The position numbers and the translations under genes were made by a program. Below are positions 5,498 to 61,385 of a stretch of DNA of 64,000 nt, piece after piece. This stretch comes from Styela clava (Eukaryota; Chordata; Ascidiacea; Stolidobranchia; Styelidae): contig NC_135257.1 of NCBI RefSeq assembly GCF_964204865.1, forward strand, positions 13,476,151 to 13,540,150, read 5' to 3'. Under the pieces are notes generated by a model. The model made no database searches, was not told the origin of the DNA, and saw only the letters and a program-made list of their open reading frames with translations. Every line of letters begins with the position of its first letter. The first letter of the stretch is position 1.

Positions 5498-5903
5498 ATC
5501 AGAATTAAACCAAATTCGTTATAAATATGCCAACGAGGCACCTAACCTGTAATTTATTCTGAAATAAAATGTTCAAAAATAAATCATAAAAATGTATAAA
5601 TTAGCACTAAGGGATAAAGAATTGCAGGAAATATTTATAACTGGAAATAAGCAGATGTTTTCGCAGGGATCGCATAATAATTTAGAGTACTAGGTCAGGT
5701 CCTGGTTAGCAAATTGTTCAACCAAAGTCTACCCATTTCGCCCAGAGAAGTCAGGGGAAGAAAAATATTAAGTTCCCAACGGCTCTCTATGTCTAAGTGG
5801 CATAGAATATAGATCATCTCATAAAAAATGCAAATATTTTTTCATGTAAGGTGAATAAATCAAGTTAGAAAAAACTTAATTAAAGGAGGGTGATCCAAAC
5901 ATA
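5498..5903. other. RBM18-NRDE2 gap
   Basis: This 406-base spacer holds the RBM18 promoter or leader and the NRDE2 3' UTR. Nothing else is recognised. Confidence 0.5.
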
Positions 5904-23534: not shown

Positions 23535-23556
23535 CGAGGTGTGTAAGGTTTTTTTT

Positions 23557-24873: not shown

Positions 24874-25009
24874 ATTATAATCCAGAATGTGTAATCCTTT
24901 GTTGTTATTCCTTAATCAGACAGCGACTCAATATTGTACTTAATACAACAAAATACTCCACTGCCTAAACTTAATCAGCCTTTACCTCTTCCAGACATGT
25001 CTTTCGTTT

Positions 25010-27880
25010 TTTGTGCGTACGTTTTTTGTCCCCCGGCTTCCGTACATACTGTGAGGCGTGTAACACGTACACCGTGTTATGACATCCACCGAGAAGCTCC
25101 CGATTCATCATTCCGCAGAAAGTTATGGATGGTATCATCTGAATTAATCTCCCATTTATGGGAGGTGGAGGTATGGCGTCATTTATAAAATAGTCAAAGT
25201 GGATTCATCAATTTGTTCAATCATTTAGAATATGTTTCCAGTTTTTTCTGATACCAAATATTTCCAGGTTTTCGAATTTAGTCTCGAGTAGGGTGAGAAA
25301 TTCTGTCAATTTTTTTTAGAGTTTGATCTAGAATATTCTTATCAGTATACCTGTTTGAATACCTGTCTTCTCTGTCCAGTTGGATTTTTCTTTTTATTAT
25401 ATTAATCTTCATGATAGTGAAACCTTTAATGACCAGAAGTTTTTGTGGGCCGTCGTAGCTATTGTCCATGATTTCCTGTCTTGATATTGTAATATTTGTG
25501 TTACATAATCCGTTGATTGCTTCCGTGGTTTCTGCGATGTATATTGCTGTTTGGCGGCAGTGGAGGAAAAGATGCTTGGAACTATCTAGTGGCAATTTGC
25601 AGAACTTACAATTCATGATCTTAAGTTCGCCAGATGGTTTGAATCGAATGCCCATTCCTCTCATCTTATCTCCGAATATGTATCCTTCCTTATATATTCG
25701 GTAGGATACTATTCTTTCGCTGTTGGTGAAGCTGGATCGGAAGAACCTTTCGCGGAGATGGACTTTATTCCAATTTGGATCGTTTTGTTGTTCGATGTGG
25801 TTTATCTTTAATTTGTGGTATAGGTCTCTGTGGCGCGCGGTCTTCCACTCGTCTCGAGAAAGGCCAACTTCTTTGAAGATGTCCAAGATATTGGTCCAAT
25901 GTTTTGGGGTGATTAAGCTATGGGGCCTAGAATTACTATAGAGGTTTTTGTTGATAACTTTAATTTTGTATCCTAATGAAAATAAAGCCTCCATTTGCCA
26001 GAATTGATTTTTGGTGCGGTCATGTACAATTTGTTTCATTTTTTCCACTTTGCAAGCTTTAATTTTTGCGGTTAGGTCAATCATGTTGATCCCCCCTTAT
26101 TCCACGCTTTTTGTAAAGTTGATCTCCGTTTGGCTTCAATTCGTTCCGGGTACCATAGGAATTTATAGCAAGCGCTCTGAATCCTTTTGACGGTTTTCTG
26201 TGGGACGTTCTTTACTCGGGCATGGAATATAATTACAGACATTAATATTGAATTTATAATAATCTGTTTAGCATACCAAGTTAATTAACGTAGCTTGATA
26301 TAATTTAGAGTTCGAATTAATTTGTTAGCAATATCATTCCACATTTTTTCTAGCCCTATTTCTCCGAATTGTATGCCAAGGATTGTGGTGTGTTTCTTTA
26401 TGTATGTCCGATATGGTGAGTTGAAAATTAATTGGTGCGAGGCAGTGTTCCCTCTAAGGTGTGCGCGTGTGCGCGCGCACACAGCTTTCAGAGGCTGCGC
26501 ACACGCATAGATTTACTGCGCACAGACGTATTTCGATGTAATGTAACAATTTTCTCGGTTGGCAGGTTGAGAAAGTTTGTTGTTGGCCCACCCATTACCC
26601 GGTTAGAATGCCAAAATCTCTTCATTGGTTTTTGCACAAATATTAGCCATTTCCAAAAAAGTGCGCACACATCAAAATTTCTGCGCACACATACTACAAG
26701 AAATTAGAGGGAACATTGGTGCGAGGTTTTTGTAAGGTACAGTATTTCTGTCTTCTCGATGTTTGTTTTTTGGCCAGTTGCTATTTCGAAATGGTTTGAT
26801 TCTTTGAATATTTCGCTAACTGATTCATAGTCGCGAACTGCAAAGGTTACATCGTCGGCGTATTGGTCCAACTTATGTTCGAAATTTCCTAATTTTATCC
26901 CATGTATATCTCTATTGATCAATATAGATCTGGCGAAGGGCTCAGTATTTAAGGCGTACAAAAGCATGCTCATCGGGCATCCTTGCTTAATTCCCCTTCG
27001 AATTGTTATTTCATTCGATAGCTTCCCGTTCACATCCACTTTGCTGCTGATTCCTGTATAGATATTTTTTAATAAAGTAAAAGCCCTATTTCCAATTCCA
27101 ATTTGTTGCAAAATTTTAAACAGAAAACCATGGTTGACCCTGTCGAAAGCTTTTAGGTTATCGATTAAAATTATCGTCCCGGGGATATTTTTCATTTTAC
27201 AGTGTCTTATGATTGCGTCCGTATTGTAGTGCACGTCTTCGATGCTCCTTAGGGGGAGTGAACATTTTTGAGTTTTGCCTATGATCTTATCCAGAATTGG
27301 CTCAAGGCGCATAACCAAAATTCTCGAAATAATTTTATAGTCTGTATTTAAGGTGGTTATTGGTCTCCAATTTTTGAGTAATTTTTCGTCGCCTTTCTTG
27401 TATATAAGTTTAACTTTCGCAGTTTTAGCAGAGTTTGGTAGATGGCCGAAATAGAAAATATTGTTAATCAATTGAATAAAATGAGTTTTAATTAAATTCC
27501 AAAACGTGATATAAAACTCTTTACTAAGGCCATCGAGCCCTGGCGATTTATTGTTTGGCATGTACTTGATGGCATTATATACTTCTTCTTCCGTAATAGG
27601 CCTTTCCAAAGTGGTGTTTTCGTCCTCTGCTATTGTTGTCTGGCTCATTAGCGATATATAGTAGTTTTGGCTTGATTGTTGCGTCTCGCTCTCCTTCCCC
27701 CATAGGTCCGTGTAGAAGTTCTCCACAGTTGTTACAATTTCTTCTTGACCAGATACCACCAATTGATTGTCGGTCATTAGTTGGTCAATTGTCGTCTTTT
27801 TTGCTCTTTTCCTAATTCTCTCGTAGATGGTCGATGTCGGCTTTTCGCCTTCTTCTAGATCTTTCATCTTCGCCATCGAT
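25010..27880 (-). pseudogene. Older, 5'-truncated and broken LINE ORF2 related to the preceding LINE
   Basis: Reverse transcriptase and C-terminal domain fragments align with ORF2 of the neighbour (YNAIKYMPNNKSPGLDGLSK, GIKQGCPMSMLLYALNTEP, QYADDVTFAVRD). The endonuclease part is absent, so it is 5' truncated at about 27880. The frame is open from 27876 to 26727, interrupted by a MITE (26443-26718), resumes to 26285, then meets stops, and the C-terminal part is open again at 26084-25278 (CKFCKLPLDSSKHLFLHC knuckle). The 3' UTR from about 25277 to 25010 shares motifs with the neighbour (CTCCCATTTATGGGAG, ATGACATCCACCG). Confidence 0.88.
26443..26718. mobile_element. hAT MITE (276 b) inside the older LINE
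   Basis: The ends are CAGTGTTCCCTCTAA and TTAGAGGGAACATTG (one mismatch), with 8-base duplications GTGCGAGG at 26435-26442 and 26719-26726. The interior begins with an alternating GTGTGCGCGTGTGCGCGCGC stretch. It interrupts the LINE frame, so it is younger than that LINE. Confidence 0.9.
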
Positions 27881-27906
27881 ATAGCATAGCCTAGGTATGT
27901 AAATAC

Positions 27907-30900
27907 CAGTGGCGGCGCGTCAATAAGGCCAATCGCGGCAATGCCCCGGTTGTTTTTTCGGGATAATAAAAAATATTCGAAAAATACCGCAATATCGGTT
28001 GCACAGACTGTCTACACTAGCCATATTCTCCCGACATGGTTCATTTTTCGCTCGCAAAGCCTTCGCCGAACGTCGACGGGGCGACGCCGATTTTGCCCCG
28101 GTTGCTCATTGTATATCGTATTCTCTCTTTTATCTTCCACTCGCCGCGTTTGTCTCGTTTGTTTTCTGTTTCTTTTACTAAATCATCGCGGCCGATCGGG
28201 GCTAGCCCCGAAATTATGACGACACAATGCCGACGTTTCTTACAACAACGTGTTGACATATTCACGCATTCCTTCTCGTTCGTTGGTTGCTTGAAGAGTT
28301 GATAGTTTCCTCGCCTTCGTTTTTGTCGCTTGTTTCCCTATTTGAATCAGTTAGAGACCTTTAGTCCATTTGCTTTCGATTTTCCACTTTCCTTTTGAGC
28401 TCCTCACTTCTTTCCGGCTTCGCATTTCTTAGCCTTAGACCTCATAATGAATAAGGTTGATGCACTACTTCGCACTCCGTTTTCGCAGCTGCCGCTGGAA
28501 CATAAATTAGAGGTACAACGTCTTGGGCCTTATCAACCAAAAAATTGTTCACTGGAACAATCCCATGACGGAGGAAAGCGTCGGCGTACATTCTGCGCAG
28601 AAACTTGGTATAAAAAACACGAATGGTTGTGTTACAGCGAGGACAAAAATGCACTTTTTTGTTTTCATTGCCTACTTTTTGCTACCGCCCGTGACTCACG
28701 TTGGTGTAAATTTGGTTTTAGAGATCTTAAACATCTTTCCGAGCGTGCCAACTGCCAGGGATCATCAATCTTCTATGGAGCATCTGGACAATGCAGTAAA
28801 ATACCGAACATTCGGGAATGTTAATATTGCAACACAGTTGGATGAAGGACGCGCGGTTTCTATTCGTCGGCACAACCAAAACGTCCAGAAAAACCGCCAT
28901 GTTCTCGGTCGATTGATAGATGTTTTGAAGTTCATTGGTTGTCACGAGCTGTCCCTCCGTGGGCACGATGAACGGGCTGGCTCTTCTAATAGAGGGGGAT
29001 TTTTGGATATGGTGGAATACACCGCATCCCTAGATACAGTATTGAGAGATCATCTTGATGCCGCAACTGTTTCGAAAGGGACATCTAAGGATATCCAAAA
29101 TGATTTGCTCGACTCAATGTATAAAATTTATTTACAACATTTGGCTCTGGAAATTGAGAATTGCCAGTTCCTTTCGATTCAGTCTGACGAGACAACTGAC
29201 ATCACGTGCGTTTCCCAACTGGCTGTGATTTTTCGGTTTGGGAAAGATGGTAAACCTACCGAGAGATTTCACAGCTTTGTACCAATCGTTGATCGCACGG
29301 CTTGCGGGATATCGGCTGTACTGAAAGAAGTGTTACAGCCTTACAACGCGAAGTCAAAATTGATAGCTCAAACTTATGACGGCGCGGCAGTCATGAGTGG
29401 GTCGAAACATGGTGTTCAAGTTTATATAAAAGAAAATTTTCCTCATGCGCATTTTTTATATTGTTATGCACCCCAATTTAACCTCGTTATTAAAAATATG
29501 TGTCTTGATACCCCTCTCGTCCGTATATTTTTTGCAAATGTTTCGGGGTTTTCTTCATTTTTTTCCGTTTCGCCGAAGCGCTCTGACCTCCTTCGCCAGA
29601 TATGTAGCCGCCGTCTCCCAGCTTGTGCACCAACACGTTGGAACTTCCAATCACGCGTGGTGCAGGGCGTGTCCGAAATTAGGTCTGAGCTCATTGAGTG
29701 TTTCAATGGCATTCAGAGCTCTCCGGTTTGGGACGAACGCTCTGTGAGGGAGGCAGGTCTAAAGCGTCTGCTAGAAGATGGTGAGTTTTCATTTTTTCTC
29801 GCTTTTTTTCTCCACAATATTCTATCACGTGGATGTATTATACGGCGCATTGCAGTCAAGGCTAATGGATGAAGCGTCTGTGCAGTCGTGTATTTCAGAC
29901 TTCTGCGATGCTGTATCTCGTATCCGGGAAACAAAATACGACGACACATGGAGTGCTTCTTTACGCCGCGGGCAAACAACGCAGCGTTTGATTTTGTCTG
30001 CAAAGGAATGCTGTGACATTCTGGTGAATCAAATAGGCGATCGTCTGCGCACTGAACACCTTGCCGCGTTCTCTTTGATGAACCCCAACAATTTTTCAAA
30101 ATTTGCACGTCAATTTCCCATCCATTTGTTGGCTACTGTCTCCAAATTTTACCCCATGATAAACGTGGGTAAATTGGAAAATGAATTGCGATGTATATAC
30201 ACCAATCAAACTTTTTTGAACATCACATCAACTTGCGCGCTCTATGGGTTCCTCATAGATAACACTCTAGTAACTACCTTTGCGGCGTCTGCAAAATTTC
30301 TTGACATCATTTTGACGACGCCTATTTCTTCAGCCGACGCAGAGCGAACATTCAGCACGCTGAAGCGTATTAAAACGTATCTCAGAAACACAATGAAGCA
30401 AGATAGATTAAATTCCTTGGCTGTTTTATCCATTCACAGAGACGTTATTTCTGGGATGCATGACTTTAATCAGCGCGTTATTGAGCATTTTGCTTGCAAG
30501 AAACCGCGGCGTGTTGCATATATGTTCAAGCAGTAGAAGTCTAGCAGCATATATATCTATGAGTGAGCGACGCATGTCCTTATCTTTGCATTAACTTTCC
30601 TTTCTTCATAGTAACGTTTTAAACCTTATTTTAGGTTTTGTCTGCTTTCCCGAAGTTTCTGTTAATATGTCATTGTATTTATCTGGGTAAATATTGCCTT
30701 TCCTTTTGAAAGAGGTTTCAAAATAAACTATGTCTATATTTATTAATCCCTTGACTTGGACCGGTTTTAAAGACACTTTCTTATCGTTAAAAATTGTCGC
30801 TTTTGCCGATTGGTTGTTACCGATGGAATGGTTTTTATACTCATCAAATGATGGGAGAACTTACAGCGCTCATCCTGTCCCCGTAGATGGGGGTGACGTG

Positions 30901-30949
30901 GTCCCGCAGTAGCTTGCCCCGGTTGTCAAATGACCACGCGCCGCCACTG
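27907..30949 (+). mobile_element. hAT transposon with ZMYM-like transposase, copy 1
   Basis: The terminal repeats CAGTGGCGGCGCGT / ACGCGCCGCCACTG are flanked by the perfect 8-base duplication GTAAATAC (27899-27906 and 30950-30957). The 3,043-base element encodes one transposase on the plus strand, broken by frameshifts. A near-identical copy lies at 45360-48382, so the family moved recently. It inserted directly beside the 5' truncation point of the older LINE. Confidence 0.95.
28447..30536 (+). pseudogene. hAT transposase (TTF zinc finger, DUF4371, hATC), frameshifted
   Basis: Order of domains: N-terminal TTF-type zinc finger (HEWLCYSEDKNALFCFHC), DUF4371 transposase core (QSDETTDIT, YDGAAVMSG) and C-terminal hAT dimerisation domain (SADAERTFSTLKRIKTYL), as in ZMYM1/ZMYM6-like and GTF2I-repeat-like proteins. 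The reading frame changes near 28750, where seven extra bases are present relative to copy 2, and again near 29810 in a T-run with one extra base. One core histidine-rich motif also differs from copy 2 (YCYAPQFNLV here, HCYAHQFNLV there). The protein is therefore not made intact from this copy. Confidence 0.9.
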
Positions 30950-32899: not shown

Positions 32900-33529
32900 A
32901 TATAAGATGTAAAAGAAATATGCAATAAATCTTTGGTTGATTTAAATTTTAAGACATAAGTAAATAACGAATAGGTTTTGGCAAATAGCCAGAAATTATC
33001 AAATTGAAAAGAAACATTAAATTGATTAAAAAATTAATTGGAATCCATGTCGATAATGATAATACGACGAATACTGTATTTTAAAATGCGGGCGCTTTTG
33101 ACAAAGTGGCAAATAAAACCTACGAGTCCGAAAATTGGATGCTTAATATGCTTGAGGCAATTTAAACTAAAAAATTTAGCGATATTTTAGAGCGTCTTGT
33201 TATAATATTACTCTATCGGATATATTGCGTTTTGAAAGGTTTTAAAACCAAAGTAGAGTATATCGTGATCAGGATGGCAAATGAATGTTCGTTTAACAAA
33301 TTTTGTAATAGTTAGAAATAGAACTCTTTTTTTAATAGAAACTAATGGGGGGAGAACCATATGCAGATAGAATATTGAGGGATAAAATGTCAGAGTGTAA
33401 TAAGAACTACAACAGAAATATCGATGGGGTGAAATTTCGGCTTCATAACACTTTAAGTTTATTTATCATTGTGTTATTTCTGTCACTTTTATCCATCCTA
33501 ATTCTAATCAGATATTTTCTTCACAGAGA

Positions 33530-36500
33530 ATGTTCCACTTGAGGACGAAAAGAAAAATCATTTATACTATTCTAGCATGTGTTCCATTTGCCTTGTTACA
33601 CTTCATCATCAATAGCAAATTTGCTGATAAAGACAAAAAGTCCTTTTTCGTGAAAGATACAAGCAAAGAAGATTCGTACGAAGATTTAAACAACGTCAAT
33701 CGCGAAGAATTGTATTATAGAGTTATGCGTGAAGCAGAAGTGGCATTTCAGGCCCAAAAGTTGAACTTGACAGTAAAATCTTTTTATAATGATATTTTTC
33801 AATTAAGCGACAGCAGAGTTAAATTCTATAGACGCAAAAACTATGACGAAGTTGAAAATTCATTAGTAAACAAGAGCAGAGTTGAAGATTCGTTCCTAAA
33901 ATATTTCCCGATGTCTCCAGAAGGTACGGACATATTTGAACTCGCTTCTGATAATAATATATGTTCGAATTTGTCAATTTGATGTGGCTTGAATATTTAT
34001 CAGATTTTCGTAATTGCAATATGTGTACTGTAGAAAGAAAATGCATTTTAGAGCTTTGTATTCGTTTTGTAATGATCAATCAGAAATGTTATTTGTAATT
34101 GTAGTGAGTAATCCCATCATTCCGCCATGTCGCGGGATTGCAGAGGGCTATTACGCCTTCGGGTATGAAACAATGCAAACAAAAAAGAAACGATAACCGA
34201 TCTGTAACTTTCAAAGCTGTACACAAAACAGCGGTTTTACGGCATTGTTGCATAACAAATTAAAACATTTTATATTGTGGGACCCAATCAAGGACACAAC
34301 GTGGGACACCATTTGATAAATACTTCTTATTGATTACAGACGCAATCCGTAGGTTTGGGAGTAAATTACCATACTGGGAGAAATATGAAATTCTAAACTA
34401 TCCAAAAGTATATTACCTCGGATTGAATGCCAACAAAACTCAATTGAAAGAAGACGGCAAAAACAATTTTGGATTTGATTTTGATACATTGGTTGAAAAC
34501 GAATCTGAGGGAAATTATGACGTCAGTGGTCACTATAAAATGGTAAGACATAAATATATTAGTTTTGATTATTATTACATGGTGAAGAGAAAACTGCACT
34601 TTATATTTTTGCATGTTCTAATCCAGGGGTGCGCAATTACTTTCCAGAGTGGGCTAGGCTAGTTACACATAATAGACTTGGTTACTAGGCCACAGACTCA
34701 AAACTATGAATAAAAACAGTCTATTTACAATAGCAGCTAGGCTAACGTTTATATAATAGCAGGAAGCACAATGTGACAATCGGGGTCATTATGACGTTGT
34801 TTTTAGCGGGAATTTATAGTATAAAAGTATAGTCGTGATTTCAGCAGACACAAGTGGGCCGAATGGAACACTTCGGTGGGCTGGATCCAGCCCGCGGGCC
34901 GTAATTTGCCCACCCCTGTTCTAATCTAATCAATTCAATGTTTTTTGTTCTATTATTTTAAGGTCCCTGGTGATCATATCGGTTACAGATATGAAATTAT
35001 CAAATACGTTGATACTGGCTATTATTGCGATGTTGTTGTAGCAAGAGACTGGTCAAATCCAATTTTAAAAAATGTTGCCATTAAAATCATGCGTGTTAGA
35101 GGTCACAGGTAACTGAGTCCTAATTAAATACGATAAATCTTTACAGGTAAATTTCACTGATATTAATGCATCCGCCGTGGTCGATCTCATGTGCAAAGTT
35201 TGTACCCGAAATTTAGAGCAAGAGTTTTTGAAATGGTCACTTCCTTAATAACAAAACCCTGATCACCATTCCTGAATCCCGGCAATTAGCGAGAATTTAT
35301 ATATTTCATAAACGCCCATACATTTCGACCAATGAATCAGGGATAGGAAAAATTGGGTGTTCATTATCTTCGTAGTTTTCTTTCTAACAACCTTGCCCAT
35401 TGCACAAATTATTAGCCTTGGCATGCTATTTCATTCCAATTATCTATTTGAAGAACGAGTTCAACTGAGGTCACCAGGGGTCAAAAGGTCACGAAAATCT
35501 GAGTGGGGAATCGTATTATCGCTTTGATAGATAAAAAAAAAATGACAGCATGGATTAGGTCAAGGTATATATCATCTGTATTATCTTTAAAAGTGCTATG
35601 TATGGATGAAATGTCTTTTCCCTCCTTCCGTCACTCTCATATTATTTGGTTAAAAAAGAACAAAAGGCCACAACTAACATACCACACACCCATTGTTGTG
35701 CTCTTCTTAGCTGACCTTTGTAGGCTGGGCGTTTGGCTACGATCAGTAGAGATTTCCTGCGTTTATGTATAGTTCGCAGATGTTAAATATATCTGGTACA
35801 TTTACTATGGTAAGTAGCGAAAAACTGACTTTTATTGTTTATCATCATTTTAATTACCCATAGCCAACGCAAAAACATTTAAATGTGTGATATGCACATT
35901 TTCTGGCAATTGGTACTCCGTGCATGTGTCGGCGAAAGTTGTTGACCAGACCGTTCTAGTAGAATGTAGATGATTCAAAATGTATAATCTGTCCCGAGAC
36001 TTCTATTGAGAAAACGTTAGGAACCGAAAATGGACGTGGGATGGGATGGGATATGGGATGCACCATCAATTGAGGATGGCGTTGAAAGAAAGCGACTGAA
36101 AGTTGTCTGTCACAGTAAATTTTTATATCATCTGAGTAACTCGTGCTACAAAGCATACACGATAAAATCTCAACTTGAAAGAATTTTAATTTATGTCCGA
36201 TCTTTGAAAGGGATGCAGATGTTGAAAGAAGTGTTCCAGGGCTGAGGTGCGAAGCATTTTTTAAGCAAGACGAAAGGGTAGCTAAATATGAGAATGTTCT
36301 TAACACACTTTTAAAGTAAAAGTCCTCATATGAACTGAAGGTGAATAGAGCATTTAGTAAGGCAGGGACTTTATTCGAGGGAACTAGCACTCAATTTATC
36401 CTGAATGTCGCACAAAAAAACGAAAATCCTCTTGAAATGCCCCCCTAAAGAGAAAAGGCTACACAACATCCTCTCCTCAGTAACGACGTTATGCCCATCG

Positions 36501-39500
36501 ACGTCAAAGAACAACTTCTCCATGTAAAATAAAATGCTGATGAGTCATACAAGAAACTTCGAACTGAAAGATTCATAAATGAAAAAATTCGACTTTCATC
36601 GTACCAACCTGAAAACAATTACTCCGAGAAAGGTGTACAGAAATTGAGGGCGAGGCAGCAATTAAGAAAGAAGATGCCCACATGAGACGAAGCTTGCAAA
36701 TCGCCCAGGAGAAAAGGTTTTATTATGAATGAGCTACTTCAGTGTGATGTGTGTACAAAGTCCCCTCTACATCATCGACGTTATAAAAAACATTCGCAAA
36801 CTTCCAAATAAGAATTTCGAAAGATTTGGGCATTTTTCAAATGCATTTTTGAGTTTTATCGCCTCCTCAACAAAGGGTGCTGAAATAATTGACTTTGAAT
36901 TTGACTTGTACAAGGAAAGATCGTTGATTCTGAGCGTCAAAGAAGAGCGACTGTGGCACCCATAGAAATGCTTTATTGCAAGTCATTTCTACGGACTTAG
37001 TGGCGGCATTTTCATTGTTTGTAGGTCAAAGGCGTCTGATGCCACAGTGCCTTTATCCGACCACAGTGAAAGAAACTGACATGAGATGCAAAGCACGCCG
37101 CTAATTAAAGAACAAAACCAAAACATATATATCGTTGTTTTATCATCCGTTCGGACGTCTTCATCTTGTTTTTCTTACTACCGGAATAAGCTACATAGGG
37201 GCGGCCTCAATGAGCTTTGGATTAAAACTGGTGTTAGCAGTTCAACAAGAATATTCCTGTGCACATTTTTGCCAGAAAAAATTGGACCTGGTATGTATGA
37301 TGTCCTTCCTGCTATTCATGCATTAATAACCGGCTGGGAAGGTTTTCTAATAAGGGAAGTGACCCTTTTGAAAACTTGTACCCAAATTTCGGGTACAAGT
37401 TTTGCACACGAGATCGGCCACAGCTGATACACTATATGCACCTATTATATTTTGAAAACATCGCACGTGACACGATGGCACAGAAGGGCCATGTCGTGAT
37501 TATGTATTCAATAAATGTAAAGCCGACTTTCGTGCATTCACGAACGAATTTTTCAGTCGGATTCCTAATTTATCGCTAAGTGGTCACTTCACCGACGCTG
37601 AATTAATCTTCTTTTAAAGTTTTGTTTTGTGTTTTCAGCACCCTTAGACCTTTCTGGCAAGAAGTAGGTATGCTGCAGTATCTCAATACCCATGCTTCCG
37701 ATTTGGATTATTTTACACGCATGTTGGCAACCTTCGAATTTCGCAACCATCCCTGTATAGTTTTTGAATTGTTGGGGTTAGTATTAGTCTCAGAAATAAA
37801 ATACAGTGTATTTTAAAGAAGAGGTATCCTTAATTATTACATTTATTTGTATGCTCCCATAATTACATGAGGGAGACCGTGCGCTTTCGGAAAATGTTGT
37901 GAAAAAATCTAGTTTGCTACTATTGCATCAATCAATGTCAAATTTTACTACTTGAATCCGCTAAAAGGATATATATTCTTTTTTTTCAAGTACGATATTT
38001 TACTCAAAATTTTTCTGTTTCATTTAAAATTTAAATCCATTGAACTACTTTTTATGAAATTTGGCAACACATTTTTCCTAAGCAATTGTTGGCTTATGTC
38101 AGGTCGCCGTCACATTTCTCCACCGATCTTTTCAGCAAACTCAACTCAGTTAAAAAGCTGAGGCGGTACGTGTCCATCCATATATTTGAGCATTGCTCTA
38201 TTAATCTGATTTACTAAAATGCTTAATGAATAGATAACATGTTATGTATTTGCTAAACATAGCATGATATCTATTTGGATGCAGAATTATTTTACTTTTA
38301 CATGCATTTTTTACTTACCAAACTTTAATGTACTTCACAGAGGAACTATTGACTTAAAATATTTGAAACACTCCGTGCGAAACACAACATTGATACGAAG
38401 ATATGCAAGTGATGCTTTGCATGGTTTGCGTATTCTCAACAGAATCGGCGTGTTGCACGGAGATTTTAAACTGGTAAATGCAATATATTGTCACATGCTG
38501 AATAATCATTGTTAATTACAATTTTACTATAGTGTGTAATCTGCCCTGATAGTGATAATTAGCAACTTTATCTCAATGAGAAACGACACTTTGGAAATTC
38601 ACTGGTGCATAATGCATCAGTTTTGTGCTCTTGGCATTTGAGTTTTCGCTAGTAGTGGTTTTTCGTTAGTTTGCTTATATGTCTCTGTGTAGCAACAACA
38701 CTTGAAACATAAAAGAACTCCATACAAATCCATACTGTTGGTTGTAGTTGGCTTGTGTATATATGTAAAGATTCTCTGATCACTAATAACTATAGTGCCT
38801 GAATATGTATATATTTATATATATTCTCTATGATTAAGCTTGCAAGATTATTCGCTAATCCATCCAAGTTCGCGTTGCTATTAACTAATATTGTCTGCTT
38901 ATTTGGTAATATGCGCTAAAAGTTTATAAAACGGGTCGAGGCTTGAGACAAAGAGCCGCGATGACATTGGGTGCGAAACTGTCTCAAGGCCAGCTTCTTT
39001 TGATAATAGCAGAAAAAAATATACGCTGTGCTAAAACATAGCGGGAATTAAATTTTTCTATATGTTTTCAGCATAACCTGATGTATATTCATGGAAAAAA
39101 TAATGAAAGCAATGGACAATTGATAAAAATAGGGGATTTTGGAGGAAGCTGCGTTGTTGGTCAACCAAGTATGTCTTTCTGAGATTATGATATTAAAAGT
39201 TATATCATTAGATTTTTGGTGCACAAAGTTCATGAATATAACGAATTTTTAAACTATTGTTAGAATGAACTAAAAAAATGATATGAAATGCTTATGAAAC
39301 TGAATTTTTATCTTTTTATAGAATGTGGAATTCGGTATTACTTTATTACTCGAGCCTATCGTGCTCCTGAAATAATTTTCAACCTTCAACACACAACTCA
39401 GATTGACATGTTCAGTTTTGGGGTTTGGCTGGCAGAACTGTTTTTGGGTCAGCCCCCATTTTATGGTGAAGATAATGAGGAAGATCATTTAGGAGCAATG

Positions 39501-41013
39501 ATGGAAGTACTCGGGCTTCCTCCAAGTCATATGATTGCAAAGTCACCTAGGAAGCACATATACTGGGGTAACTACATTGATAAACTTTATCTAGGCCAGT
39601 GGTTCTCAACCTTTTATGGCTCGTGGCCCCCTGTTCTCCATTCCAAAAACATTAACGTGTTGGATTGTATTATGTTTTTATTACCTTTTACGGAATGCAA
39701 AAGCAAACCACGGACAAGAAAGTAAGAGTTTTCTAGTATACAATCAATGGGAATCGCTCGGGACTGTCTGACGAATAACGAATAAGTTGCAAATCGCAAC
39801 TTGCGACAAATGAACTAGCAGTGAAGAAGCTTTCTTTCTTAGTAGTGGGTAAGAATTTGATATGCCACCTCAAAGTTGCATTCAAAAGCGGGCTTTTCCT
39901 CCGGCGAAACTCGAACTTGGCCAATGTTGCCTTATTGTCAATCTAATTTGCTTGGCAGCCAAGAATATCAACGCTTTCACCCGGTGATGATTTTTGTCAC
40001 GGTGATTTTGGAGTTTAGATGGACTTAATGATTCATTGCTCATTACATTCGAGAAATGCAAGTATTGAGGACATTCTCTGTCATCTCGATTTACTTTGGT
40101 AAAACCAAAGTAAATGTCGTTCCATTTTCGTATTTTGGCCATTAGGAATTTTTACAAATGGGTTATTCCGTCTATAGTACGATAGCGAAGGTTATCTCGC
40201 AGTCTAGTGAAACTACAGGTTAGACGGCCTACCAGCGAACTATTTTGATTGGTAGATTGCAAATTCCATTATGATCAAACAATTCACACACAAGAAAGTG
40301 AATACATATTAACCTATTCAGGCACTTAAACTGCGGCGAACACCTCAACAGAGAATTTTATTATAAAAGGAAAGTGTGCAAACGAAATCGTTTTAGGATC
40401 AATTATTAGCCTTGTGTCATTCATTGGCCCATTGTGTCATTCATGGCCCCCCTTGAACTTGGGATTCAGGGATTTTCCAACCTAATTATTTCTTTTGAAT
40501 TTTCATCTTTGCTTTCTTTATATATATGTTTGTCTAGATGCCTTTCGACACAAAATTCACGATAAAGGAACGTATCGAAGGCCTTATAGTAGACCATTGT
40601 TGAAAGTTTTGGAAGGAATGGACTTCGTGTTAATTGACCTGATTTGCAGATGCCTCGAGTAAGTTTTGTTGAAAATCATTTAAAACGTTGTGTATTTTGT
40701 TTGTGATTGGGTTTCGTACGTTTGAATGTAAAAAAAAGAAAACATTTGTGTATGTCTAGTCACCTCATAGATCAGACTACATATTTTTTTTGTGCTTTTC
40801 CGTGCGTACTTATCCAGATACTATGTTATGGCGACACCATAAAATTAAGTTTAGGATCTAAGAACTTGGTGATTCATAAACCTCATGTACAGATGGGACC
40901 CTAACCTACGCATAACACCTGAAGAAGCACTTCGTCATCCTTCTATGACTGGAGTAGAGAAAGATTTGGAAGAATATCCAATAGTCATCCAACGATTTCT
41001 AGGGAAAATTTAA
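33530..41013 (+). CDS. Membrane-anchored DYRK-like protein kinase, copy A (nine exons)
   Basis: Exons: 33530-33923, 34340-34542, 34963-35108, 37639-37776, 38341-38473, 39072-39168, 39322-39567, 40538-40658, 40893-41013. All boundaries are GT/AG and the sum is 1,599 b, in frame, giving 532 residues. RTKRK then a hydrophobic segment (about 10-27) make a signal anchor. Residues 127-165 (PMSPEDAIRRFGSKL, YYLGLNANK) match the DYRK2/4-type N-terminal autophosphorylation region. Kinase domain from about 207: Lys240 (VAIK), likely alphaC Glu256, HGDFKLHN with Asp335 and Asn340, DFG at 360-362, APE at 385-387, activation-loop Tyr377. The glycine loop is reduced to DTGYYCD and HRD is HGD, so ATP binding may be altered. 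The C-terminal CLEWDPNLRITPEEALRHP block is complete. A CMGC/DYRK kinase is confident; substrate and site of action are unknown. Confidence 0.85.
34624..34918. mobile_element. hAT MITE (295 b) in intron 2 of kinase copy A
   Basis: The ends CAGGGGTGCGCAATTAC and GTAATTTGCCCACCCCTG are flanked by TTCTAATC duplications (34616-34623 and 34919-34926). The paralogous intron near 57842 has a single uninterrupted TTCTAATC, an empty site. Confidence 0.92.
35172..37426. mobile_element. 2.25 kb DNA element in intron 3 of kinase copy A
   Basis: Imperfect inverted ends of about 85 b begin GTGGTCGATCTCATGTGCAA on the left and are mirrored before 37426 (TTGCACACGAGATCGGCCAC). The matching intron of copy B (58028-58314) is only 287 b, so this DNA was inserted after the duplication. 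It contains a decayed open frame. The target duplication is not clear. Confidence 0.65.
36729..37340 (+). pseudogene. Relic of an uncharacterised transposon-associated ORF
   Basis: Two in-frame blocks survive between stops. The first, 36729-36965, has FGHFSNAFLSFI and EIIDFEFDLYKERSL. The second, about 37090-37330, has LWIKTGVSSSTR and MYDVLPAIHALITG. The pattern 'DVVFDxYxxxS' followed by 'LPAIHALTGCD' is one I know from a large family of uncharacterised metazoan repeat proteins; that assignment is from memory. Stops and shifts make it non-functional. Confidence 0.4.
39597..40462. mobile_element. SPIN-like hAT remnant in intron 7 of kinase copy A
   Basis: The left end CAGTGGTTCTCAACCTTTTA and the following GGCCCCC match the well-known SPIN/Charlie-type hAT terminus. 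The right terminus is not found; the boundary at about 40462 is set by where homology with the copy B intron (about 60805) resumes. A right-end deletion after insertion is likely. Confidence 0.6.
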
Positions 41014-45359: not shown

Positions 45360-48300
45360 CAGTGGCGGCGCGTGGTCATTTTGACAACCGGGGCAAGCTA
45401 CTGCGGGACCAAGTCACCCCCATCTACGGGGACAGGATGAGCGCTGTAAGTTCTCCCATCATTTTATGAGTATAAAAACCATTCCATCGGTAACAACCAA
45501 GCTGCAAAAGCAACAATTTTTAACGATAAGAAAGTGTCTTTAAAACCGGTCCAAGTCAAGGGATTAATAAATATAGACATAGTTTATTTTGAAACCTCTT
45601 TCAAAAGGAAAGGCAATATTTACCCAGATAAATACAATGACATATTAACAGAAACTTCGGGAAAGCAGACAAAACCTAATATAAGGTTTAAAACGTTACT
45701 ATGGAGAAAGGAAAGTTAATGCAAAGATAAGGACATGCGTCGCTAACTCATAGATATATATGCTGCTAGACTTCTACTGCTTGAACATATATGCAACACG
45801 CCGCGGTTTCTTGGAAGCAAAATGCTCAATAACGCGCTGATTAAAGTCATGCATCCCAGAAATAACGTCTCTGTGAATGGATAAAACAGCCAAGGAATTT
45901 AATCTATCTTGCTTCATTGTGTTTCTGAGATACGTTTTAATACGCTTCAGTGTTCTGAATGTTCGCTCTGCGTCGGCGGAAGAAATAGGCGTCGTCAAAA
46001 TGATGTCCAGAAATTTTGCAGACGCCGCAAAGGTAGTTACTAGAGTGTTATCTATGAGGAACCCATAGAGCGCGCAAGTTGATGTGATGTTCAAAAAAGT
46101 TTGATTGGTGTATATACATCGCAATTCATTTTCCAGTTTACCCACGTTTATCATGGGGTAAAATTTGGAGACAGTAGCCAACAAATGGATGGGAAATTGA
46201 CGTGCAAATTTTGAAAAAATTTTGGGGTTCATCAAAGAGAACGCGGCAAGGTGTTCAGTGCGCAGACGATCGCCTATTTGATTCACCAGAATGTCACAAC
46301 TCACAGCATTCCTTTGCAGACAAAATCAAACGCTGCGTTGTTTGCCCGCGGCGTAAAGAAGCACTCCATGTGTCGTCGTATTTTATTGTTTCCCGGATAC
46401 GAGATACAGCATCGCAGAAGTCTGAAATACACGACTGCACAGACGCTCCATCCATTAGCCTTGACTGCAATGCGCCGTATAATACATCCACGTGATAGAA
46501 TATTGTGGAGGAAAAAGCGAGAAAAAATGAAAACTCACCATCTTCTAGCAGACGCTTTAGACCTGCCGCCTCCCTCACAGAGCGTTTGTCCCAAACCGGA
46601 GAGCTCTGAATGCCATTGAAACACTTAATGAGCTCAGACCTAATTTCGGACACGCCCTGCACCACGCGTGATTGGAAGTTCCAACGTGTTGGTGCACAAG
46701 CTGGGAGACGGCGGCTACATATCTGGCGAAGGAGGTCAGAGCGCTTCGGCGAAACGGAAAAAAAATGAAGAAAACCCCAAAACATTTGCAAAAAATATAC
46801 GGACGAGTGGGGTATTAAGACACATATTTTTAATAACGAGGTTAAATTGGTGTGCATAACAATGTAAAAAATGCGCATGAGGAAAATTGTCTTTTATATA
46901 AACTTGAACACCATGTTTCGACCCACTCATGACTGCCGCGCCGTCATAAGTTTGAGCTATCAATTTTGACTTCGCGTTGTAAGGCTGTAACACTTCTTTC
47001 AGTACAGCCGATATCCCGCAAGCCGTGCGATCAACGATTGGTACAAAGCTGTGAAATCTCTCGGTAGGTTTACCATCTTTCACAAACCGAAAAATCACAG
47101 CCAGTTGGGAAACGTACGTGATGTCAGTTGTCTCGTCAGACTGAATCGAAAGGAACTGGCAATTCTCAATTTCCAGAGCCAAATGTTGTAAATAAATTTT
47201 ATACATTGAGTCGAGCAAATCATTTTGGATATCCTTAGATGTCCCTTTCGAAACAGTTGCGGCATCAAGATGATCTCTCAATACTGTATCTAGGGATGCG
47301 GTGTATTCCACCATATCCAAAAATACCCCTCTATTAGAAGAGCCAGCCCGTTCATCGTGCCCACGGAGGGACAGCTCGTGACAACCAATGAACTTCAAAA
47401 CATCTATCAATCGACCGAGAACATGGAGGTTTTTCTCGACGTTTTGGTTGTGCCGACGAATAGAAACCGCGCGTCCTTCATCCGACTGTTCTGCAATATT
47501 AACATTTCCGAATGTTCGGTATTTTACTGCATTGTCCAGATGCTCCATAGAAGATTGATGATCCCTGGCACGCTCGGAAAGATGTTTAAGATCTCTAAAA
47601 CCAAATTTACACCAGCGTGAGTCACGAGCGGTAGCAAAAAGTAGGCAATAAAAACAAAAAAGTGCATTTTTGTGCTCGCTGTAACACAACCATTCGTGTT
47701 TTTTATACCAAGTTCCTGCGCAGAATGTACGCCGACGCTTTCCTCCGCCATGGGATTGTTCCAGTGAACAATTTTTTGGTTGATAAGGCCCAAGACGTTG
47801 TACCTCTAATTTTTGTTCCAGCGGCAGCTGCGAAAACGGAGTGCGAAGTAGTGCATCAACCTTATTCATTATGAGGTCTAAGGCTAAGAAATGCGAAGCC
47901 GGAAAGAAGTGAGGAGCTCAAAAGGAATGTGGAAAATCGAAAGCAAATGGACTAAAGGTCTCTAACTGATTCAAATAGCGAAACAAGCGACAAAAACGAA
48001 GGCGAGGAAACTATCAACTCTTCAAGCAACCAACGAACGAGAAGGAATGCGTGAATATGTCAACACGTTGTTGTAAGAAACGTCGGCATTGTGTCGTCAT
48101 AATTTCGGGGCTAGCCCCGATGATTTAGTAAAAGAAACAGAAAACAAACGAGACAAACGCGGCGAGTGGAAGATAAAAGAGAGAATACCGGGGCAAAATC
48201 GGCGTCGCCCCGTCGACGTTCGGCGAAGGCTTTGCGAGCGAAAAATGAACCATGTCGGGAGAATATGGCTAGTGTAGACAGTCTGTGCAACCGATATTGA

Positions 48301-55299: not shown

Positions 55300-58200
55300 C
55301 TGAACACAATCATTAGCGAGTAAGATGACCGTGAGTGCGTCCACGAGTGCAAATGTCCGCGGATACAAATGTATGTGAGCGTAAATGTATGCAAGTGCAC
55401 ATGTACATGAGCGCAATCCAGCGCTGAATGTATACGATGATAGGCCCGCCGCCCTACGGCATTGGCTACGTCATTTGGTAGGCCATATTAGACCCTCCGC
55501 GGTTCTTGTTACAGGCGAGATAGTACGCTAATCAAGGGTGAGGTTGAATTTATTTGAAAACACTGATCCCTCATGAATATATCGCTCGATAAATTATCAC
55601 CAAAATTCACAAATAAACAATAAAAGGTGTAAAAGGAAAATGCAAATTAATATTTGGTTGATTCAAGATATAAGTAAGTAACGAAAAGATTTTGGGAAAA
55701 TAGCGAGGAATTATCGAATTGAAAAGAAACCTCAAATTGATTATAAAATTGATTGGAATCTATGTCAATATTGATACTACAACGAATACTATATTTTAAA
55801 ATGCGGGCGCTTTTGACAAAGTGGCAAATAAAACCTTCGAGTTTAAAAATTGGATGCTTAATATGCTTGAGGCAATTTAAACTAATTAAAGTTAGCAGTA
55901 TTCTAGGGCGTCTTGTTATAATATTACTGTATCGGATATATTGCGTTTTGAAAGGTTTTAAAACAAAAGTAAAGTATATCGTTATCAGGATGGCAAATGA
56001 ATGTTCGTTTTACAAATTTTGCAATAGTTAGAAATAGAACTCCTTTTTTAATATAAACTAATGGGAGGAGAACCATATGCAGATAGAATATTGAGGGGGG
56101 AATGTCAGAGTGTAATAAGAACTAAAACAGAAATATCGATGGGGTGAAGCTTTCGGCTTCATAACACTTAAAGTTTATTTATCATTGTGTTATTTCTGTC
56201 ACTTTTATTCATCCTAATTCTAATCAGATATTTTCTTCATATAGAGAATGTTCTACTTAAAGACAAAAAGTAGAATCATATATACATTTCTAGCCTGTGT
56301 TCCATTTACCTTACTACACTTCATCATCAATAGCAAATTTGCTGATAAAGACAAAAAGTTATTCTTCGTGAAAGATTCAAGCAAAAAAAATCCGTACGAA
56401 GATTTAAACTACGCCAATCGCGAAGAAGTGTATTATAGAGTTATACGTGAAGCAGAAGTGGCATTTCAGGCCCAAAAGTTGAACTTGACAGTGAAATCTT
56501 TTTATAATGATATTTTCCAATTAAGCGACAGCAGAGTTAAATTTTATAGACGCAGAAACTATGCAGAAGTTGAAAAATCATTAGTAAACGAGAGCAGAGT
56601 TGAAGATTCGTTCCTAGACAATTTTCCGATGTCTCCAGAAGGTACGGACATATTTGAACAAGCCTCTGACAATAACATATATATGTTCGGATTTGGTGTG
56701 GCTCAAATATTTATCAGATTTTTGTAATTGCAATATGTGTACTGTAGGAAGAAAATGCCTTTTAAATCTTCGTATCCGTTTTGTAATGATCAATCAGAGT
56801 TGTTATTTGTAATTGTAGTGGCAGCATTCTGCCATGTCGCGGGATCGCAAAGGGCTGTTACGCCCTTGGGTATGGAACAATGCAAACAAAAGAGAAACGA
56901 TAAATGATCTGTAACTATCAAAGCTGTACGCATAACCAGCGGCTATACGGAGTTGTTGCATATAAATTAAAATATTTTTGTTTGTGGGACACAATCAGGG
57001 ACACAACGTGGTACACGATTTGATAAATACTTCTCATTGATTACAGAGGCAATACGGAGGTTTGGGAGTAAATTACCATACTGGGAGAAATATGAAATTC
57101 TCAACTATCCAAAAGTATATTACCTCGGATTGAATGCCAACAAATCTCAATTGAAAGAAGACGGCAAAAACAATTTTGGATTTGATTTTGATACATCGGT
57201 TGAAAAAGAATCTGAGGGAAATTATGACGTCGGAGGTCACTATAAAATGGTAATACATAACTATATTAGTTTTGGGTCTATGGAGTCGTAAAATATTTCG
57301 AATCAATTACGGGTCATTTATAAAATCAACTCCGAAACATAGGTTCATTCGTTGACTTTGGGTGTGCTGATTATCAAGTCGAAATAAACCTAATCACTAC
57401 TTATGGTTTCATCACTTTGATGAAAATGTTACCAATTACAATTCAACCAAACTTTTAAAAGATTTTCTTGGACTAACCAAAAAATACTAGACGATACTGA
57501 TAAAACGGAAACACTTCCCCAACCTCCAAGAATATAACGTATAGAAGTGTTAGGACAAAACTGAAAGAACATGCTATATTGTCTTGCCATATTTGAGATG
57601 AACTTATCTGAAGATTTCAAAACTCGGTCAGACAACATTTTATTAGCGTGCAGCAAAACTCCTGTTTCACGTAGAATAGTCATAATCCCTACAGCGTCTG
57701 TGTATTATACGCATGCGAATCCACCAGAGCAAAGGTATGCGGCAAGAATGGATCTCGTGTAACCCAAACGGATAGTTGACAGAATACTAGTTTGATTATT
57801 ATTACATGATGAAGAGAAAACTCCACTTTATATTTTTGCATGTTCTAATCAATTCAATTTTTTTTGTTCTATTATTTTAAGGTTCCTGGTGATCATATCG
57901 GTTACAGATATGAAATTATCAAATACATTGATACTGGCTATTATTGCGATGTTGTTGTAGCAAGAGACTGGTCAAATCCAATTTTAAAAAATGTTGCCAT
58001 CAAAATCATGCGTGTTAGAGGTCACGGGTGAGTAAGTTATAATTAAATGCGGTTTTATCGATAAATCGATAACAAATTCACAAAATACCATTCCACTTTA
58101 TTTTAAACTAATATGCACTCATTATATTTTGCATGTGACACGCCGGCACAGAAGGGCGTATCGTGATACGTTTCTTGATTATTTATTTAAATGTAAAGCC

Positions 58201-61200
58201 GACTTTCGTGCATTCACGAACGAATTTTTCAGACGGATTCTCAATTTATCGCTAAGTGGTCACTTCCTCGACGCTGAATTACTCCCCTTTTAAAATTTAT
58301 TTTGTATTTTCCAGCACGTCAAGATTTTACTGGAGAGAAGTAGGTATTCTGCAGTACCTCAATTCCAACGCTCCCAATTTGGATTATTTTACACGCATGT
58401 TAGCAACCTTCGAATTTCGCAACCATCTCTGCGTAGTTTTTGAATTGTTAGGGTCAGTATTTGTCTCAGAAATAAAATATAGTGTATTTTATTGAAAGAG
58501 GTAGCTTATATTATTACATTTAATTGTTCGTTTCTATAATTACATAAGGGAGATCGTGCGCTCTCGGGAGTTGATGTTGTAAAAAAAATCTAATTTGCAA
58601 CTATTGCATCAGTCAATGTTAAATTTTACTACTTGAATCCGCTAAAAGGATATATAATATATTAATCCTCTTTTTTTTCAAGTGCGATATTTCACTCAAA
58701 ATTTTGCTATTATATTTAAAATTTATATTCATTGAAACACTTTTTATGATATAGCAGCACATTTTTCCGAAGCAATTGCTGGCTTATGTCAGGTCGCCGT
58801 CACATTTCTCCACCGATCTTTTCAGCAAAAAAACTAAGTTAAAAAGCTGAGGCGGTACGTGTTCATCCAAATATATGAGCATTGCTCTATTATTCTGATT
58901 TACTAAAATGCTTAATGAATAGATAACATGTTATGTGTTTTCTATACATAGCATGCTATCTATATTTAGATGCAGCATTATTCTACTTTTACATGTATTG
59001 TTCACTTACCAAACTTTACTGTACTTCACAGGGGAACTATTGATTTAAAATATTTAAAACACTCTGTGCGAAACACAACTTCAATACGAAGATATGCAAG
59101 TGATGCTTTGCATGGTTTGCGTATTCTCAAAAAAATCGGTGTGGTGCACGGAGATTTTAAACTGGTAAATGCATTATATTGTCACATGTTGCCATGTTGC
59201 AAAATTATTGTTAATTATTTACAATTTTACCATAGTGTGTAATCTTACCTGATAGTGAGAATTAGCAATTTTAATCAACGAGAAACCGCACTTTGGGAGT
59301 ACACTAGAACTTTGCTAATCCAAGTCGCTGACAAACTAAAATTCAGTGGCACATAATGCATCAGTTTTGTGCCAGGCTCTTTTTTATTGTATTTGAGTTG
59401 AATAGTTTCTCATCAGTTTGCTTATAGGTGTGTGTTCAGCAACAACTCTTGAAACTAAAAACTAAAGAGAACTTTATACAAATCCATACTGTTGTTTGTA
59501 TATAGCTTGTGTAGTAACGATTCTCTGATCTTCAATAACTATAGTGGGTGAATATGTACAATAAAATGTTCTCTATCCTTCAGCTTTCAAGAATATTTAC
59601 TAATCCATTCCACTTCGCATTGTTATCAAATAATATTATCTGCTTATATGCGCTGAAAGATAATAAAACGGGTCGTTAAGGTTTGAGACACGAAACTGCG
59701 AGGAGTTTGTAGGCCAGCTCCTTTTATTAATCGCATGAGAAATTATCCGCTGTGCTAAGCCATAGCAATAAAGCATTAAATGTTTGTATATGTTTTCAGC
59801 ACAACCTGATGTATATTCATGGAAAAAATATTGAAAGTAATGGACAACTGATAAAAATAGGTGATTTTGGAGGAAGCTGCATTATTGGTCAGCCAAGTAT
59901 GTCTTTCTGAAAATATGATATTAAAATTATATTATTATATTTTTTGTTGCACAAAGTTCATAAATTTATCAACTTTTTAAACAATTGGTGAAATAAACTA
60001 AAACAATGATATGAAATGCCTTTGAAACTGGACTTATCTTTTCACAGAATGTGGATATATGTATTACTTTATTACTCGACCTTATCGTGCTCCTGAAATA
60101 ATTTTCCACCTGCCACACACAACCCAGATTGACATGTTCAGTTTTGGGGTTTGGCTGGCAGAACTGTTTTTGGGTCAGCCTCCATTTTTTGGCGAAGATA
60201 ATGAGGAAGATCATTTAGGAGCAATGATGGAAGTACTTGGGCTTCCTCCAAGTCATATGATTGCAAGGTCACCTAGAAAGCACATCTATTGGGGTAACTA
60301 CGTTGATAAACTTTGTCTAGGCATTGGCTGAAGTGATGTTATCTACTAAAAAATACTGTAGTTATTGTAAACAACATTTTTTGTTTTGTTTTATACTTCT
60401 ATTTGACACCACGTTTACTTATGGATCGTTTGGTTATTATAATGTCGCTGTTGCCGTTAGTATTTCTTTTTTGTTGTTGTTATGAAAAATCTTTCTTCTT
60501 TCTGATTACTCGACCAATTGCTTTAAAATGTTCAGTGGTTGTACTGTTGCTAGAAGGCTATTACTTTTATTTATTTTAAAAATTTGTGTAGGCTCTATGG
60601 AAGCTTTATGAGATTAGTTTTTTGTTTACGAGGACACCATCAAAATTACTACTTCGTTTTGGCTTTCGTGTCCATATATCTGAGCATTGCTCTCTTGTTT
60701 ATACGAAGTATATATATATGATAAAAATAAAACAGTTTCAACGATTCGATACAGGGATAAACGCTGAATGCCATTACTTTGCCCACATTCTTATTCCTTG
60801 TTGCATCAGGGATTTTGCAACCTACATTGCTAACTAATTAATTCTTTTAATTTTTCATCTTTGTTTTTTTCATATGTTTGTCTAGATGCCTTTCGTCACA
60901 AAATTCACGATAAAGGGACACATCGAAAGCCTTACAGTAGACCGTTGTTGAAAGTTTTGGAAGGAATGGACTTAGTGCTAATTGACCTGATTTGCAGATG
61001 CCTCGAGTAAGTTTTGTTGAAAATCACTTAAAACGTTGTGTGTGTTTGTCTAGTCATCTCATACATCAGACTACACCTTTCTTGGGTGTTTTTCCGTGCG
61101 TACTTATCCATGAAACCGCCACTATGTTATGGCGACATCCTAAAATCAAGTTTAGGATCTAAGCACTTGGTGATTTATAAACTTCACGTACAGATGGGAC

Positions 61201-61385
61201 CCTAACCTACGCATCACACCTGAAGAAGCACTTCGTCATCCTTTTATGACTGGAGCAGAGAAGAATTTAGAAGAATATCCAATAGTCATTCAACGATTTC
61301 TAGGGAAAATTTAGTGTGGAAACTTGGCAAACGAAATTCACAACAGACGGAGGTAAATCGCCGCCCAGTGCGCTGGGATTCCAAA
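55300..61385 (+). repeat. Segmental duplication unit B (pairs with 32035-41090)
   Basis: Direct copy of unit A with the same gene and flanks but without its four transposon insertions. Homology ends within about 75 b after each kinase stop codon. Confidence 0.85.
56248..61314 (+). CDS. Membrane-anchored DYRK-like protein kinase, copy B (nine exons)
   Basis: Exons: 56248-56641, 57047-57249, 57882-58027, 58315-58452, 59032-59164, 59800-59896, 60048-60293, 60886-61006, 61194-61314. Every exon has exactly the length of its copy A partner and the sum is again 1,599 b, so 532 residues with no gap between paralogues. The membrane anchor (KTKSRIIYTFLACVPFTLLH), DYRK-type PMSPEEAIRRFG region, VAIK lysine, HGDFKLHN, DFG and APE are retained, as is the reduced glycine loop DTGYYCD. 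The activation loop differs: KCGYMYYFITRPYRAPE here, KCGIRYYFITRAYRAPE in copy A. The loss of the Gly loop is thus older than the duplication, while both reading frames remain open. Exon 1 follows an acceptor (TTCATATAG), so a 5' noncoding exon or trans-spliced leader is expected. Confidence 0.85.

Follow-up and report, generated by a model that had tools for sequence, protein, structure and literature searches.

We analysed a 64,000-nucleotide stretch of the Styela clava genome (C9:13476151-13540150 of a 376.6-Mb genome; hereafter the window) and describe a kinase gene within it, gene 1 (33530-41013, + strand), a spliced gene model of nine exons whose 532-residue product begins with a basic tail and a hydrophobic segment. 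Together with gene 2, a second copy in the same window, it probably belongs to a class-2 DYRK kinase family specific to its lineage, whose members have become type II membrane proteins within the secretory pathway. The family assignment comes from the NAPA/DH region and the kinase-domain scores, and the anchor recurs across most copies in the genome; membrane insertion, topology, glycosylation and the remaining mechanism are what we infer from these sequences.

Gene structure and coding constraint

Gene 1 extends from the A of its ATG (33530) to the final base of its TAA stop codon (41013), and all eight of its introns, like all those of gene 2, have GT..AG boundaries. The protein is ordered as a basic tail (amino acids (aa) 1-9), a hydrophobic segment (10-27), a stem reaching to about residue 122, a NAPA/DH region (about 123-207) and a kinase domain that continues to residue 532. 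Every sequence feature that an initial annotation of this DNA had named is present, namely RTKRK followed by IIYTILACVPFALLHFII, DTGYYCD, HGD, the VAIK Lys, the catalytic Asp and Asn, DFG and APE. The features of gene 1 are as follows:

33203..33529, + strand: conserved upstream region, 309 of 326 aligned bases the same in gene 2 (95%), ending at the 3' splice-like site CACAG/AGAATG
33530..33923, + strand: exon 1 (aa 1-132), basic tail, putative signal anchor and stem
33557..33610, + strand: codons of the hydrophobic segment, IIYTILACVPFALLHFII, aa 10-27
34340..34542, + strand: exon 2, NAPA-1 and DH region
34963..35108, + strand: exon 3, NAPA-2 (DHIGY), Gly loop DTGYYCD, VAIK
37639..37776, + strand: exon 4, alpha-C Glu, FEFRNH, VFELL
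38341..38473, + strand: exon 5, alpha-E, HGDFK
39072..39168, + strand: exon 6, catalytic-loop Asn, DFG
39322..39567, + strand: exon 7, activation loop (RYYFITR), APE, alpha-F
40538..40658, + strand: exon 8, C-lobe
40893..41013, + strand: exon 9, end of C-lobe and stop

Gene 2 is a second intact copy (56248-61314, + strand), likewise of nine exons:

56248..56641, + strand: exon 1, putative anchor MFYLKTKSRIIYTFLACVPFTLLHFII and stem
57047..57249, + strand: exon 2
57882..58027, + strand: exon 3
58315..58452, + strand: exon 4
59032..59164, + strand: exon 5
59800..59896, + strand: exon 6
60048..60293, + strand: exon 7
60886..61006, + strand: exon 8
61194..61314, + strand: exon 9 and stop

The two proteins are identical at 474 of 532 residues, and the genes are 85-97% identical in exons and 74-90% in introns. 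By the Nei-Gojobori method, synonymous divergence (dS) was 0.20 and nonsynonymous divergence (dN) 0.053, giving a dN/dS of 0.26 (bootstrap 0.18-0.39), with regional values of 0.23 in the kinase domain, 0.62 over aa 38-122 and 0.16 over aa 1-37, where 7 synonymous changes fall on 21 sites and 6 nonsynonymous changes on 90 (Fisher p 0.003). Gene 1 and gene 2 show no decay and are under purifying selection, and the anchor codons are themselves constrained. Because the arrangement in gene 1 is repeated in gene 2 with this overall ratio and the low ratio over aa 1-37, it exceeds what chance would produce. Amino-acid changes between the copies are densest in exon 37639-37776 (aa 241-280 of gene 1, the alpha-C region; 10 of 40 residues), possibly reflecting relaxed or diversifying selection.

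A candidate tenth exon of gene 1, 38103-38165, is probably intron: it measures 62 nt in gene 2 against 63 nt in gene 1, which would shift the frame there, and with it left out the gene 1 protein can be aligned with DYRK2 from the FELL motif to the catalytic loop, so we dropped it from the model. In gene 1, this piece of intron 4 is nevertheless bounded by good splice sites and has its frame open; 59 of its 62 bases are the same in gene 2, against 89% for the intron, and use as an alternative or a poison exon is possible. Intron 2 of gene 1 holds a hAT-type element (34624-34918; terminal inverted repeat CAGGGGTG, 8-bp target duplication TTCTAATC) that is absent from the matching place in gene 2, and that was therefore either inserted after the duplication or lost since. 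Gene 1 is also flanked by two copies of a sequence in opposite orientation (28195-30930 and 45380-48121), 93-98% alike, with DUF4371 (hAT transposase-like) frames.

Class-2 DYRK features and the family in the genome

The initial annotation placed the kinase in the DYRK family, an assignment that the NAPA/DH region and the kinase-domain bit scores uphold and narrow to class 2. Searched alone (aa 115-209) against 177,635 PDB sequences at E up to 10, the NAPA/DH region yielded ten matches, eight to DYRK2 or DYRK3 (E 3.7e-13 to 9.3e-10) and two at chance level (E 0.5 and 0.7), with query alignments starting at about aa 122. Since only DYRK2/3 gave significant matches in this set, we assign the gene 1 product to class 2, of which NAPA is diagnostic (PMC3250476). 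Gene 1 and gene 2 keep the DH and Tyr of NAPA-2, as well as the FxFR residues that contact NAPA-2 in DYRK2 (PMC3677093), while the NNxG(F/Y)D and GHY parts of the DH box are there but separated by an insertion of about 13 residues. The kinase domain alone scored 153.7 bits against DYRK3, 137.7 against DYRK2, 121.9 against DYRK1A, 109.4 against HIPK2, 98.9 against CLK1 and 88.5 against PRP4, so that DYRK2 and DYRK3 exceed DYRK1A by 16 and 32 bits, respectively. The best 60 of 958 PDB matches were to DYRK, HIPK, CLK, PRP4, GSK3, CDK6 and two unnamed kinases. For aa 1-123 there was no match in the PDB set at E 1, and exon 1 had a single Pfam match, at E 0.22 and under its cut-off.

Phylogeny of the kinase domain alone fared less well as a check on the assignment. 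It set gene 1 and gene 2 beside DYRK2/3, with support of 65/80 (43 in an earlier run). Weighing against this placement, none of the tested positions beside DYRK1A, CLK1, HIPK or PRP4 was rejected (p-AU 0.13-0.36), so this tree is no proof of class 2 and membership rests on NAPA and the bit scores. The second Tyr of the activation-loop YxY (Tyr377) is aligned in both copies, and the first is Arg or Met. Overall, gene 1 and gene 2 have NAPA-1, NAPA-2 (DHxxY), the kinase domain, FxFR, the second activation-loop Tyr and the CMGC Arg in common with DYRK2 and DYRK3, but differ from them in the N-terminal anchor and stem, the DH insertion, the Gly loop DTGYYCD, HGD in place of HCD, the lost first Tyr of YxY and membership of a multigene family.

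The gene 1 protein had at least 72 matches in its own genome. Besides DYRK2, matches to the NAPA exon number at least twelve, comprising the two window genes and those at the first three locations below:

C9, 17.35 Mb: g3, a third copy on C9
C3, 16.95-17.05 Mb: array of eight copies, a to h
C13: one NAPA-exon match
C8, 16.02 Mb: ordinary DYRK2 (GKGSFGQV, HCDLKPEN, YTY)

Weaker single matches lie on C1, C6 and C9, and no third copy was found within 100 kb on either side of the window at E 0.01. Around the N-terminal part of the C8 DYRK2, whose first exon was not established, a 235-residue open frame contains no anchor like that of gene 1. A tree was built from seven family members, the genome's own DYRK2 and six reference kinases from human; the family formed one clade (100/100), and the own DYRK2 joined human DYRK2/3 in another (100/99). 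This tree omits c, d, e and g, and five of its family sequences (g3, h, a, b and f) are incomplete assemblies of tblastn matches; holding the family together with class 2 was not rejected (p-AU 0.517), and the tree does not settle which group is sister to the family. The suggestion of a lineage-specific branch is supported, and the genome has a separate, ordinary DYRK2. No relative was found in a collection of viral contigs, and of 28 stretches in a collection of genome contigs that fit a pattern, none was a relative by tblastn.

The putative N-terminal anchor and its predicted topology

Eleven copies were surveyed (gene 1, gene 2, g3 and a to h), and in nine of them (gene 1, gene 2, g3, a, b, d, e, f and g) the protein starts with Met, followed by a basic tail and a hydrophobic segment. 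With a hyphen marking our own division of tail and segment, gene 1 reads MFHLRTKRK-IIYTILACVPFALLHFII and the others MFYLKTKSR-IIYTFLACVPFTLLHFII, MFQIRGRRKNR-YAVLICLSCILMYYLI, MHCWHARTKIR-YALIFFLFVSIPCYF, MYCWHVKTKIR-YALMFCIFVSIASYF, MICFRSKIKVR-LTVLAFSLIVFICL, MICSRAKIKVR-FAVLGFSLTVFIFL, MLSFRRSRRF-LCAIVICTILVIAL and MVRLRRRFK-LFCTIFMCASVITC. The anchor is present in g3 even though that protein shares only 35% identity with gene 1 across aa 1-154. A scan of the eight array regions at a preset cut-off gave candidates in a, b, c, e and g, and a stricter scan, to which a requirement for a frame of at least 60 residues was added afterwards, retained four of the eight (a, b, e and g) over a background of 5 matches in 400 kb-strands of flanking DNA, or 0.05 per region. 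In the close relatives b and g, the two array copies for which the join was established, the anchor exon joins the stem exon in frame through canonical splice sites. The first 35 codons of the anchor exon are constrained between them (dN/dS 0.28, p 0.006).

Several observations weigh against an anchor shared throughout the family. In copy c no anchor was seen, its NAPA exon carries a stop and only a doubtful 44-residue frame lies upstream; copy h showed none within the stretch fetched. The segments of g3, d and f, at KD18 1.61-1.62, fall just short of the strict hydropathy threshold of 1.7; homology or visual inspection identified them, those of d and f by eye in open frames. Constraint on the a/d anchor was not significant (dN/dS 0.43, p 0.16), and the AlphaFold model of gene 1 exon 1 was of low confidence (mean pLDDT 52.6).

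We also considered whether the hydrophobic segment might be an artefact of the gene model, the protein being an ordinary soluble DYRK with its true first exon elsewhere. A good 3' splice-like site stands 3 bases ahead of the ATG in gene 1 and gene 2 alike, and an upstream exon may therefore exist; no such site adjoins the ATG in the five other window genes inspected, and the site in gene 1 and gene 2 fits a non-coding first exon or spliced-leader addition. Because the site precedes the anchor, however, the anchor would stay in the message. Gene 2 has a stop codon two codons ahead of its ATG, and we rejected the upstream open reading frame 33339-33542 as coding since its frame is lost in gene 2 and the upstream indels between the copies ignore frame. 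Given also the constrained anchor codons and the recurrence of the feature in nine of eleven copies, we regard an artefact as very improbable. The signal anchor proposed in the initial annotation appears to be encoded, as judged by hydropathy, charge bias and that recurrence, and a membrane-anchored family of class-2 DYRKs is highly likely.

The more positive flank of a membrane segment stays on the cytosolic side, according to the positive-inside rule. Set against the 15 residues that follow the segment, those that precede it are more positive in eight of the nine copies and equally positive in gene 2, so by this rule the kinase domain would lie in the lumen. The C-terminal flank is zero or negative in g3, a and d. 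The stems of b and g point the same way, with 7 and 8 N-x-S/T sequons per 106 residues, densities reached by 1 and 0 of 5000 shuffles, and the reverse motif is absent from them. No significant sequon excess is seen in the N-terminal part of the own-genome DYRK2.

Other findings fit this topology less well. The flanks of gene 1 (+4/+3, N-terminal/C-terminal) and gene 2 (+3/+3) are positive on both sides, as would suit an anchor in the mitochondrial outer membrane, and no significant sequon excess was found in the stems of gene 1, g3, f, e and h. After the anchor, gene 1 has six sequons (shuffle P 0.018, a weak signal) and gene 2 four (P 0.14, not significant); counting in favour, all four are common to gene 1, and two of them survived a substitution. 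Within the 410 aa of the NAPA-kinase part the counts are 4 in gene 1 and 2 in gene 2, compared with 1-2 per 337-358 aa in seven reference kinase chains. The sequons of b and g thus favour a lumenal position for the family, and the signal is weak for the window pair alone.

The flank charges of the window pair, the moderate hydrophobicity of the segment and a sequon signal that is weak or lacking in these two copies could instead indicate a mitochondrial outer-membrane signal anchor, or N-out insertion, with the DYRK domain tethered to an organelle and facing the cytosol; class-2 DYRKs are mainly cytoplasmic (PMC7658070), a usual rather than a defining trait of the class, and one that the anchor encoded here speaks against. 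The charge bias of the nine copies taken together and the sequon-rich stems of b and g speak against such an arrangement, which we consider unlikely. The lumen-facing kinase domain that the initial annotation derived from the positive-inside rule stands as the best-supported orientation by flank charge and the b/g sequons, and we judge a lumenal position likely.

Under the type II topology, the basic tail would stay cytosolic while the hydrophobic segment acts as the signal anchor, leaving the stem, the NAPA/DH region and the kinase domain in the lumen of the endoplasmic reticulum (ER) or Golgi, or outside the cell. NAPA/DH would there aid folding of the kinase domain, Tyr377 would be autophosphorylated in cis, and secreted or membrane substrates could then be phosphorylated in the ER/Golgi or outside. 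Beyond the sequence facts, these steps are modelled on the biology of DYRK2 and on POMK.

Among the other contents of the window, the minus strand carries single open frames at 3347-12065 with Pfam domains HIT/DcpS_C, RRM, NRDE-2 (1081 aa), Med10 and glutaredoxin. Long interspersed nuclear element (LINE)-like frames occupy 20052-28011, one with endonuclease and reverse transcriptase domains, an adjoining one with CCHC-like Cys spacing by eye, and further putative frames resembling reverse transcriptase. Scans for tRNA and against Rfam gave no match. Elsewhere in the genome, other kinase expansions form clusters of protein kinase frames, roughly 300 residues long and almost all without interruption:

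C5, 2.6-4.4 Mb: kinase-frame cluster
C10, 4.0-4.4 Mb: kinase-frame cluster
C18, 1.8-2.0 Mb: kinase-frame cluster
C6, 22.3-22.5 Mb: kinase-frame cluster
C2, 7.7-7.9 Mb: kinase-frame cluster

Active site, known kinases and significance

Both window copies keep Lys240, Glu256, Asp335, Asn340, Asp360-Phe-Gly, Tyr377, APE and the late CMGC Arg, and neither shows the losses that mark a pseudokinase (VAIK Lys, catalytic Asp or DFG Asp). The Gly loop, which the initial annotation described as degraded, is indeed so, with one of three glycines left in DTGYYCD and the whole loop identical in gene 1 and gene 2; the change is confined to one branch of the family. All three glycines are present in a (GMGKAG), b (GNGGCG) and f (GMGAEG), one is lost in h (DAGTFG) and two in g3 and the window pair (DTGYYC), and the intact loops of a, b and f make the loss look late and branch-specific. 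The accompanying reading of HGD as a degraded HRD did not hold. DYRKs carry Cys at the position of the HRD Arg (PMC3677093), and the own-genome DYRK2 has HCD; g3 has HRD at this position. HCD being the usual DYRK motif, we rejected HGD as a sign of decay.

The family may nonetheless be lumenal but dead, its members serving as nucleotide-binding pseudokinases, the second option of the initial annotation, or as scaffolds, an account that differs from our favoured reading in activity alone. The two glycines missing from gene 1, gene 2 and g3 would suit it, as would the altered DFG of array copies a (DFD) and f (DFA), which for that reason seem poorer candidates for activity than the window pair. 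The retained catalytic residues, the identity of the loop in both copies under purifying selection and the glycines kept in a, b, f and h argue the other way, as does POMK, once named a pseudokinase and active (PMC5142810). We therefore hold a dead family possible but rather less than probable, and lean slightly towards catalytic activity for the window copies, judging by their residues.

Comparable kinases are known from other lineages. POMK (SgK196) is not a DYRK. Like the proteins as predicted here, it has a type II membrane orientation, a lumenal kinase domain and potential N-glycosylation sites; it was once labelled a pseudokinase, and it differs in its glycan substrate and in catalytic residues at unconventional positions (PMC5142810). 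VLK and the Fam20/Fj kinases are likewise routed into the secretory pathway (PMC7948968) but belong to other kinase lineages, whereas the window proteins retain NAPA and a DYRK-type active site. Two DYRKs from Trypanosoma brucei, TbDYRK (Tb927.10.15020) and TbDYRK2, have unusual motifs and are active all the same, and the available text of both reports describes no membrane anchor for them (PMC7136023, PMC3250476). According to a 2021 review, of 540 human kinases the secretory pathway has only POMK and VLK, beside the atypical Fam20/Fj kinases (PMC7948968). Ten T. brucei kinases of several groups have predicted transmembrane parts, as do four in Giardia (among PMC1266030, PMC3019232, PMC9941534, PMC1420674, PMC3218828, PMC8175086). 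Because a report on Leishmania describes CK2 as a secreted kinase (PMC8066228), we make no claim to a first extracellular CMGC kinase. In the titles and opening lines of abstracts of the open-licence literature we found no membrane-anchored DYRK, and, judged from that literature alone, a signal-anchored DYRK family is apparently undescribed.

On the sequence evidence we give about an even chance to the fuller account, in which a class-2 DYRK moved into the secretory pathway by gaining an anchor and multiplied to some ten genes, two or more of them with stems rich in sequons, yielding lumenal or extracellular Ser/Thr (and self-Tyr) kinases apart from Fam20, VLK and POMK, with the window pair and g3 also rebuilding the Gly loop. 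If this is correct, a DYRK family across the membrane would represent another origin of extracellular phosphorylation, and would test whether NAPA, the DYRK folding aid, allows a kinase to mature outside the cytosol. Because one genome holds Gly loops in intact, partly lost and mostly lost form, step-wise change of the ATP site becomes directly testable.

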